Source: Halocatena salina (GTDB lineage: Archaea > Halobacteriota > Halobacteria > Halobacteriales > Haloarculaceae). Taken from it: a stretch of 64,000 nt of DNA. The notes beneath the pieces are model-generated. The model saw nothing but the letters and a program-made list of their open reading frames with translations, was not told where the DNA came from and searched no databases. Made by a program: the position numbers and the translations under genes. The stretch is from the NCBI RefSeq assembly GCF_023115355.1, contig NZ_CP096019.1, forward strand, positions 1,054,001 through 1,118,000. Reading direction: 5' to 3'. Each line of letters opens with the position of its first letter. Within the stretch, counting starts at the first letter, position 1. Below are positions 40,452 to 55,960 of this stretch, in pieces.

Positions 40452-40492
40452 ACCCGTCGGATCGGGAGGCGAATGCAAAGGGGTGACGTTCC

Positions 40493-40631
40493 ACTTTTTT
40501 TGCGTTCGGGTGAGCGAAGCTCACCCTCACGCAAAAAACCTGGACTAAAAAAGGCCGCGAGCGAAGCTCGCGGTGAGTGACCTGCCCGCTCCGCCGCCGC
40601 GACCGCTGCCGCCCCGCGACCGCCGCCGTCG
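40493..40631 (+). repeat. Double-hairpin palindromic repeat, copy 1
   Basis: Module one is a palindrome: CCAC, a T tract, GCG, then stem GGGTGAGC with GAA loop and GCTCACCC, then CGC, an A tract and TGG. Module two is GCGAGC-GAA-GCTCGC followed by GGTGAGTGACC and a GC-rich tail. It lies about 40 bases upstream of ribH. It is nearly identical to copy 4 (42004-42146) over a 47-base stretch beginning GCTCGCGGTGAGTGACC. Confidence 0.85.
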
Positions 40632-40643
40632 ACTCTGTTGTTC

Positions 40644-40742
40644 TCAATCGTCGACGTGGACGGCTGGCGGCTCGCTAACGACGCGCGCCACCTCGGGATA
40701 CTGCTGGCGCAATCCATCGAGGTCGCCGCGCTGGCGATACCG
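40644..40742 (-). pseudogene. 3' end of a second copy of the 183-aa cysteine protein gene
   Basis: The last 32 codons plus stop are homologous to the end of the gene at 40921-41472; over the final 31 residues only four differ (one copy has DLDGLRQQYPEVARVVSEPP, the other DLNGLRQQYPEVARVVGEPP). Most nucleotide differences are silent, so the fragment derives from a once functional paralogue rather than a fresh tandem copy. Upstream it breaks off at repeat copy 2. Confidence 0.75.
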
Positions 40743-40743
40743 G

Positions 40744-40905
40744 CCCACCTTTTTTCCGCTCGGGTGGCCTTCGGCCACCACTCGCGCAAAAAATCTGGAT
40801 CAAAAAAAGCCGCTCACTCCGCTCCGCTTCGTTCGCGGTGACTACACTTGCATCTCCCGCCTCCGCGACCGCTTCCGCCTCCGCCTCTCCCCCGCCTCCG
40901 CACCG
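40744..40905 (+). repeat. Double-hairpin palindromic repeat, copy 2
   Basis: Same plan as copy 1. Module one stem is GGTGGCC-TTC-GGCCACC between T and A tracts, with CCCACC at the left and TGG at the right. Module two is GCCGCTC...GCGGTGA followed by a pyrimidine-rich tail of CCTCCG units. It lies just 3' of the unknown gene at 40921-41472. Confidence 0.8.
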
Positions 40906-40920
40906 CCGACCCTGTTGTTT

Positions 40921-41472
40921 TTAGTCGTCGGCGTGGACGACCGGCGGCTCGCCCACGACGCGCGCCACCTCGGGATACTGCTGGCGCAAGCCATTGAGAT
41001 CACCGCGCTGGCGATAGTGGCAGTACTCCGCCAACAGTGCGACTAACGCGGCTGGGGCACTCGTTGCGTCAGGCTGCTCAGTCACCTCGGCTGGCTCTCG
41101 ATCGTTTTCGGGGGTGTACACCGACTGCACGACCGTTCCGTCGCGCTGTTCGTGATACCGCACCCGGCCGCCATTGTCGAACCAGCTCGTGACGACCAGC
41201 TCTTTCGGCGCGTTGTAGCGCGTGACGTTCGCTATGCCGGGCAAATCGTCGTAGTCCACTTGTGACCGGCCAAGCCCGGCCGTCGCCAGTATCTCCTCGA
41301 TCTGCGTGGCGTGCGTACAACCCGTACTCCGGCACGGCCGACACCACGTTCCAGTGCCCACGTCCACGACGTGGTACAACTCCGCTTTCGAGATCGTCGC
41401 TCGATCGTCAAGGGTCGAGAGGTTCACTGATTCGCCCAGCCGATCCCAGAACTGAAACACCGGCAGCGTCAT
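40921..41472 (-). CDS. Unknown 183-aa protein with SWIM-like Cys/His cluster, flanked by inverted repeats
   Basis: The frame extends to 41724 through a repeat, but the first Met with sensible downstream composition is at 41472. The only motif is C44-x2-C47-x4-C52-x-H54 in the context VVDVGTGTWCRPCRSTGCTH, which resembles a SWIM zinc finger (CxCxnCxH) with a slightly longer first spacing. The rest is acidic and unlike any family I know. A diverged fragment of its 3' end lies at 40644-40742. Both gene ends abut palindromic repeats in opposite orientation (copies 2 and 3), suggesting that gene and repeats move or evolve together. Confidence 0.6.
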   Translation of the reverse strand: MTLPVFQFWDRLGESVNLSTLDDRATISKAELYHVVDVGTGTWCRPCRSTGCTHATQIEEILATAGLGRSQVDYDDLPGIANVTRYNAPKELVVTSWFDNGGRVRYHEQRDGTVVQSVYTPENDREPAEVTEQPDATSAPAALVALLAEYCHYRQRGDLNGLRQQYPEVARVVGEPPVVHADD

Positions 41473-41495
41473 CTCGTTCCCCCACGAACGCAGTT

Positions 41496-41583
41496 CCCGC
41501 GAGCGCAGCGAGCGGCTTTTTTCGCCCACGTTTTTTTGTGGGAGTGGTGGCCGAAGGCCACCCGAGCGCAAAAAAGGTGGGTC
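41496..41583 (-). repeat. Double-hairpin palindromic repeat, copy 3 (inverted)
   Basis: On the minus strand it reads CCCACC, T tract, GCGCTC, then the same stem as copy 2 (GGTGGCC-TTC-GGCCACC), a degenerate right arm, A tract, CGTGGG and a second module GCCGCTCGCTGCGCTCGC. It sits just upstream of the start of the 183-aa gene and is the inverted partner of copy 2. Confidence 0.8.
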
Positions 41584-42003
41584 ATCGACGGCCCTCCAGC
41601 AGTGAACAGCCAACCCGATGCGCGTACCGCGACCGAACCGGTCGGCCACACTGGGGACATCGCTGTCGCTGGTCACGTTTCTGATACGATTCGACACCGT
41701 TACATGTCTCTGCTTCGTTCCCAATCATGGGTTCTTGCACTCAGAGGACCCAGCGTCGGGTGCTACCACCACCCGGCGCGTTCAATACGAACGCACACGC
41801 CCCGTGGCGCACGCAAGCGTCCTCGTTTATCGTTCCTTACCCCATCACGTATAAAGGTACTGATGTAACGAGTAATGTCGTGTCGTACAAACAACTGTTC
41901 TCCAGTCAAATCTCGACCGAAATAGGACCGAGCCATCGGATCAAGGAATGTTTTATCGGATGGTATCGTACTGATGGGATCCAGTGCAATTCGAACCGGA
42001 TGG
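41584..42003. other. Interval between repeat copies 3 and 4
   Basis: About 420 bases with no supportable gene. A plus-strand frame (41727-42152) runs through into repeat copy 4 and lacks the acidic composition of its neighbours. Composition shifts to A+T-richer DNA from about 41850. Confidence 0.4.
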
Positions 42004-42146
42004 CGCGGTCGCGGAGCGGCAGCGGTCGCGGCGGCGGAGCGGGCAGGTCACTCACCGCGAGCGTAGCGAAGCGCAGCGAGCGGCCTTTTTTAGTCCAGGT
42101 TTTTTGCGCGAGGGTAGCTTCGCTACCCGAGCGGAAAAAACGTGGA
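42004..42146 (-). repeat. Double-hairpin palindromic repeat, copy 4 (inverted)
   Basis: Read on the minus strand it matches copy 1 closely. The first stem is GGGTAGC-GAA-GCTACCC where copy 1 has GGGTGAGC-GAA-GCTCACCC, so both arms changed together. The A-tract is followed by CCTGGACTAAAAAAGGCCGC as in copy 1, and the tail is identical for 47 bases. It lies about 40 bases upstream of the Agl23-like gene. Confidence 0.85.
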
Positions 42147-55835: not shown

Positions 55836-55960
55836 CCCACTTTTTTACGCGAGGATGCGCGGATCGCACCCGAGCGTAAAAAAGATGGCAAAAAAGCCGC
55901 TCGCTTGCGCTCGCGGTGAGTGACCTGCCTGCTCCGCTTCCGCCTCCGCGCGCTGGTGGT
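55836..55960 (+). repeat. Double-hairpin palindromic repeat, copy 5
   Basis: CCCAC, a T tract, ACGC, a stem GGATGCG...CGCACCC (one mismatch), GCGT, an A tract and ATGG form module one; the second module is GCCGCTCGCTTGCGCTCGCGG followed by TGAGTGACCTGCC and a GC-rich tail. It begins three bases after the acyl-CoA dehydrogenase stop and could act as a terminator there. A degenerate sixth copy (T tract, GTGAG, AGCGG-AA-CCGCT, CAC) follows at about 55968-56003. Confidence 0.75.

Follow-up and report, generated by a model that had tools for sequence, protein, structure and literature searches.

A dispersed, repeat-bounded element of Halocatena carrying a structured leader RNA with a hypervariable loop and two small conserved genes

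Riboswitch-like translational leaders combine a conserved, folded and covarying leader with an alternative pairing that masks the start codon, while antisense-controlled leaders, such as the copy-control RNAs of plasmids, carry recognition loops. Among mobile elements, REP-RAYT units place two inverted palindromic repeats, which are also found singly, around a gene (PMC2817692) for a Y1 transposase with an HUH motif (Pfam Transposase_17). In Haloquadratum walsbyi, the SMR, MITE and PATE repeats are free of transposases, including the ISH2-type HqIRS32, which carries a non-transposase ORF, and the SMRs give no target duplication (PMC3119063). Haloarchaea also possess C(P)xCG zinc-finger micro-proteins (PMC11241148, PMC6562870), and a structured leader common to the genes encoding them was not found in the literature searched.

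In the window (the whole 64,000-nucleotide stretch of Halocatena salina DNA that was analysed), the preliminary description had placed four copies of one repeat design around a small gene, and a covariance model of the repeat scores all four at the same positions (80-101 bits; E 3e-14 to 3e-18 in 64 kb). Copy 4 (42004-42145, minus strand; core 42055-42145, homology to 42004) is the left-end twin-hairpin repeat, and its outer edge, between AAAAAACGTGG and ATCATAAGAATTC, is the boundary of the element. Two further covariance model matches are copy 3 (41497-41580, minus strand), an extra twin-hairpin repeat at the junction of ORF1 and ORF2, just past their original ATGA overlap, and copy 2 (40745-40838, plus strand), the right-end twin-hairpin repeat adjoining ORF2 downstream. 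Copy 1 (40491-40623, plus strand; core 40491-40573, flanking homology to 40623) is the outermost downstream repeat and represents a second, duplicated right end. As described, an exact 47-base tail is common to copies 1 and 4, the 63-nt arms of which are 95% complementary, and copies 2 and 3 form a matching pair (86% pairing over 81 nt). The palindromes are not the product of chance: among 21 distinct repeat copies, compensatory changes occur in 7 of 26 pairs, and 34 cells are changed on both sides of palindrome pairs, compared to 7.5 in shuffles. The repeat palindromes are maintained.

A fragment between copies 1 and 2 (40626-40744, minus strand), 87% identical to positions 40903-41021, duplicates the end of ORF2 on its 3' side, which makes copies 1 and 2 two versions of one end. 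Where the nested order of two repeats, gene and two repeats had suggested a composite element, the notion of a repeat-bounded dispersed element stands, but the fourfold nesting is a derived state and not the archetype. The window copy is a degraded example, to which a junction repeat (copy 3) has been added and in which one end has been duplicated (copies 1 and 2). The 3'-end duplication, ORF1, the leader RNA and a solitary fifth repeat had been missed; this last copy (55837-55916) sits immediately 3' of the stop codon of an acyl-CoA dehydrogenase-like gene and has no gene copy adjoining it.

The Halocatena salina genome holds about 16 dispersed copies of the gene, most bracketed by inward-pointing repeats, and 14 of these have their full or almost full length, with 83-89% identity to the window copy or to one another. 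Repeat copy 1 has 47 nucleotide matches in the same genome. Downstream repeats lie 125-470 bp past the gene and face inward, while upstream repeats lie 700-1220 bp upstream of the gene end in the opposite orientation, with the nearer class corresponding to the ORF1/ORF2 junction. The archetype runs from an inverted twin-hairpin through a promoter, a cloverleaf leader RNA of ~80 nt, ORF1 and ORF2 to a second inverted twin-hairpin, though the left repeat is absent from some copies. The inverted terminal repeats bound a discrete insertion, and Pfam and fold searches detected no recognisable transposase inside the element. One locus (L018; 1558799-1561525 of G000 C1) is a 2.7-kb hairpin-bounded stretch with an A+T-rich ORF upstream of the leader, possibly extra cargo.

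ORF2 (40921-41472, minus strand) encodes 183 amino acids, stop included, with a candidate zinc site (CxxC-x4-CxH), and is under purifying selection (dN/dS 0.13-0.15). It has no usable match in Pfam, NCBIfam, PDB sequences or PDB folds, with the fold result to be read as soft because the AlphaFold model searched was of moderate quality (pLDDT 77). The single NCBIfam match, to NuoI, was dismissed as chance (16 bits against a cut-off of 229). ORF1 (41582-41728, minus strand) encodes a zinc ribbon of 48 amino acids (CPQC...HRVGC) and overlaps the original start of ORF2. Ten ORF2 copies in G004 and G005 (L094-L098 and L103-L107) carry an insertion of 51-55 bp at the same place within the zinc-site codons, which is itself a different twin-hairpin repeat (TGTCGC..CTGCTAAC..TGATG).

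Within the genomes sampled, the ORF2 family belongs to a single genus, with seven genomes including that of Halocatena salina, and 90 other genomes returned one weak match (E 1.6e-4). Among named organisms, a search gave Halocatena pleomorpha and strain YIM A00010. Gene matches number about 20-40 in five genomes and one each in two near-identical assemblies, G002 and G006, the matches of which are identical and which are probably the same organism in two assemblies. Two genomes (G001 and G003) carry two gene subfamilies, B and C. Among the examples inspected, several subfamily C copies have downstream hairpins and no adjoining repeat was seen beside the subfamily B copies (two species) or the single G002 copy; a search of G002 with the repeat covariance model gave no match at all. 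The repeat model matches 43 of 59 genomes in all, five of them Halocatena.

Empty sites, a check proposed in the preliminary description, were found at three loci in three relatives. At the window locus and at loci 1614113 and 622634, the flanks are only 0.49-0.77 kb apart in G001, G002 and G003, compared to about 2.1 kb when occupied. The right boundary at the window locus is the outer edge of copy 4, where the flanking DNA is too diverged for a target duplication to be read. In G005 the unit appears to lie in the opposite orientation at three loci (1614113, 622634 and 1736400), an arrangement that recombination between inverted ends would be expected to produce. Both flanks identify many loci as shared between species, and the element copies are rearrangement points, because some flanks have been re-paired between copies. 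Between G000 and G005, orthologous copies (0.60-0.66 identity) resemble each other no more than non-orthologues do (0.60-0.65), while paralogues are far closer (0.80-0.88), a pattern in the aligned sequences which indicates that element copies evolve in concert within genomes.

The leader RNA (41744-41824, minus strand; 68 bits to covariance model R1) folds as a cloverleaf in which stem P1 encloses a variable P2, P3 and P4, and a promoter-like TATA box (CCTTTATA; 41850-41857, minus strand) lies upstream in the window and recurs upstream of the aligned leaders. In most copies the leader is located ~185-195 nt before ORF2, and farther where a hairpin intervenes. All six leaders tested fold below their dinucleotide shuffles (z -2.1 to -4.5). 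The structure was derived from single-sequence folds and a cut alignment, with P1 covariation counted separately; RNAalifold on the whole mixed alignment, in which MAFFT had misplaced P1, recovered P4 alone and no covariation. Pairs in P1 are standard in 87 of 87 sequences, a figure biased by the cutting of segments on P1 pairing, and changes on both sides occur at four of six pairs, which are independent of the cutting. Model R1 has a small flaw, with one P1 pair off by one column. Rfam (gathering score or E below 1) returned no family for the leader in the window stretch and five further loci, and no description of it was found in the open-access literature.

The leader is present in every Halocatena genome. 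Outside the genus, the covariance model detected eight copies in G062 and single matches in G045, G063 and G078, of which the G063 match sits inside a coding frame and is probably due to chance. Of 293 genomes from the order, 117 contain a simpler motif, CCGGGTG-N6/7-CACCCGA, with up to 30 per genome (family f7), and the reversed pattern is near zero across the genomes of the order. For motif matches outside the Halocatena element that passed loose stem tests, 35 of 56 have a zinc-site ORF within 450 nt downstream, compared to 12% of random positions. The leader RNA is undescribed and recurs across haloarchaeal families.

The genes that follow the RNA vary. On smaller G005 contigs (L170, L171 and L172), it precedes a succinylglutamate desuccinylase/aspartoacylase-like gene and not a zinc protein. 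In two family f7 genomes (L217-L221 and L223-L225), the proteins encoded downstream of it have 112 amino acids, match HalOD1 weakly and carry a CxxC..CGC tail, and a short conserved ORF (MIGYLLRGLKHPVRQTNR) separates the RNA from the gene. A motif scan of viral contigs led to 80 loci being tested, one of which was believable with R1: on contig IMGVR_UViG_2913406730_000001 (L238:548-622), the leader RNA (loop CTGGAA) is followed by an ORF1-like zinc-ribbon ORF (RCxxCG..HRPGC).

The P4 loop, which is 6-7 nt long (GTGGTAG in the window copy; 41763-41769, minus strand), is hypervariable. No loop is repeated in G003 (21) or G005 (31), and distinct loops number 14 of 15 in G000 and 17 of 18 in G001. 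Even for 17 pairs of leaders that share an identical downstream linker and differ at three or fewer positions across the 56 upstream nucleotides, the edit distance between loops is 0.49, compared to 0.58 for all or random pairs, and the loops are identical in two. Loop p-distance (0.66) exceeds synonymous distance (0.41) in G000. Loops nonetheless follow rules: Watson-Crick combinations are avoided at positions 1 and 7 (z 10.7), and U2-N-R4, a pattern that resembles RNA recognition loops with U-turns, is present in 47 of the 84 distinct loops. No complement to the loop beyond chance was found in flanking DNA, and a loop target in the flanks, as for guided insertion, was discarded for want of a signal.

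The 3' strand of P1 can pair with CCCATG at the ORF1 start (41726-41731, minus strand). Pairing of this strand with the first-ATG region exceeds that of shuffles in subfamilies A, B and C and in family f7 (z 8.3, 4.0, 2.1 and 10.3, respectively), with the split between B and C following a rough rule and masking in C being weak. Strands from f7 and from Halocatena each suit the start regions of their own group better than those of the other. Together these describe a predicted, mutually exclusive expression platform, again weak in C, in which the P1 3' strand is held either by P1 or by the start codon.

From these sequence comparisons, the reading that we put forward, with about even confidence, is of a multicopy dispersed element that has inverted twin-hairpin ends and no recognisable transposase, and that would carry as cargo a regulated cassette (promoter, leader, ORF1 and ORF2) with a loop-addressed translational switch. 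With P1 formed, the start codon would be free, and with P1 open, the 3' strand would mask it. The P4 loop may act as an address that a second RNA recognises by base pairing, in the simplest case a transcript antisense to the same locus, and its variation would keep 16-40 near-identical copies from cross-talk. A cis antisense RNA is preferred as partner because it would change automatically with the loop and leave no second complementary site, as found. ORF1 and/or ORF2 may bind RNA or act on the switch, and the hairpin ends could terminate transcription and be acted on by recombination or by a transposase supplied in trans. A broader proposal, which we regard as possible but somewhat unlikely, is that the leader constitutes a haloarchaea-wide multicopy RNA class with a loop address per copy for RNA recognition. 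One genome would then have tens of switches for zinc-finger cassettes, each insulated from the others; in Halocatena the repeat-bounded element, which has no transposase, would have spread them, and at least one viral contig carries the RNA.

The preliminary description had suggested a possible REP-RAYT-like system with ORF2 as the cognate protein of the repeats. Inverted palindromes do bracket the gene in subfamily A, and solitary repeats exist elsewhere. However, ORF2 lacks an H-x-H or HUH motif, as the description itself had observed, and has neither a Transposase_17 match in Pfam nor any fold match. The suggestion that homologues would always adjoin repeats did not hold for subfamily B or the single G002 copy. 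Conversely, outside the genus, where the gene family is absent or unconvincing, the repeat model matches 38 of 52 genomes, although these matches are weaker and may partly reflect terminator-like hairpins. Such a spread had been named, along with a lack of empty sites, as counting against the reading; the spread was found, while empty sites do exist. With association between gene and repeat not obligate, the REP-RAYT reading was rejected as highly improbable. A more substantial contender, although one we place short of even, is a passive MITE- or SMR-like element, the ends of which are recognised by a transposase encoded elsewhere and for which the RNA-ORF cassette is mere cargo. The inverted ends, the discrete insertions with empty sites and no transposase inside, the solitary repeats and the presence of the repeat design in many haloarchaea all fit, and Hqr. 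walsbyi offers a precedent in its transposase-free families, one MITE of which has a non-transposase ORF (PMC3119063). Against this, the cassette is under purifying selection, many positions are common to several species, and subfamily B and G002 have the leader and ORFs but not the ends.

For the RNA itself, an ordinary autoregulatory mRNA leader, in which the zinc-finger product binds the stems and the P4 loop has no partner and is free to vary, perhaps as a mutation hot spot, would account for the failure to find a complementary loop partner in cis and for the homogenised proteins and constrained flanking stems alongside varying loops. This appears somewhat unlikely given that divergence in the loop outpaces that of the variable linker and the upstream segment to either side of it, and that of synonymous sites, yet the loop keeps strong internal rules, unlike an unconstrained loop. 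Contact with or imitation of tRNA anticodon loops, as a T-box-like sensor or decoy, was also considered. Among the 84 distinct loops, 18 are identical to a host anticodon loop at six or more of seven positions, compared to 9.6 expected (p 0.003; p 0.018 with the triplet shuffled as a block), and three are exact. Complementarity to anticodon loops is not in excess (z -0.35, column permutation), on which ground anticodon kissing was rejected, and the sense signal is weak and may reflect shared U-turn rules, leaving this alternative with little probability.

If the loop-addressed switch is correct, stems and neighbours that are kept while one loop is changed in nearly every copy, dozens per genome, would suggest that archaea have an addressable system of RNA recognition. 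The Halobacteria would gain a class of RNA switches, part of their large set of zinc-finger micro-proteins would be explained, and the element would show how a transposase-less, repeat-bounded unit spreads, flips and homogenises. With riboswitch-like leaders, the RNA shares a conserved covarying leader and a start-codon-masking alternative pairing, but each genome has many copies of it, almost all with different loops, and it has no Rfam match at the loci searched. Its hypervariable loop, with a U-turn-like rule on a constant stem, is reminiscent of antisense-controlled leaders, from which it differs in being chromosomal, dispersed and associated with zinc-finger products. ORF1 and several of the downstream ORFs, as small zinc ribbons, resemble the C(P)xCG micro-proteins. 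The likeness to REP-RAYT units (PMC2817692) is one of outline only, with inverted palindromes around a gene that are also solitary; the element has no HUH/tyrosine transposase, the association is not obligate and the repeat design is distributed more widely than the gene. As with SMRs, MITEs and PATEs, the element is short and dispersed, with inverted or palindromic ends and no transposase, but its cargo comprises a promoter, a structured RNA that is conserved and bears a hypervariable loop, and two ORFs that are conserved and evolve under purifying selection, and it occupies orthologous positions while being homogenised within genomes.
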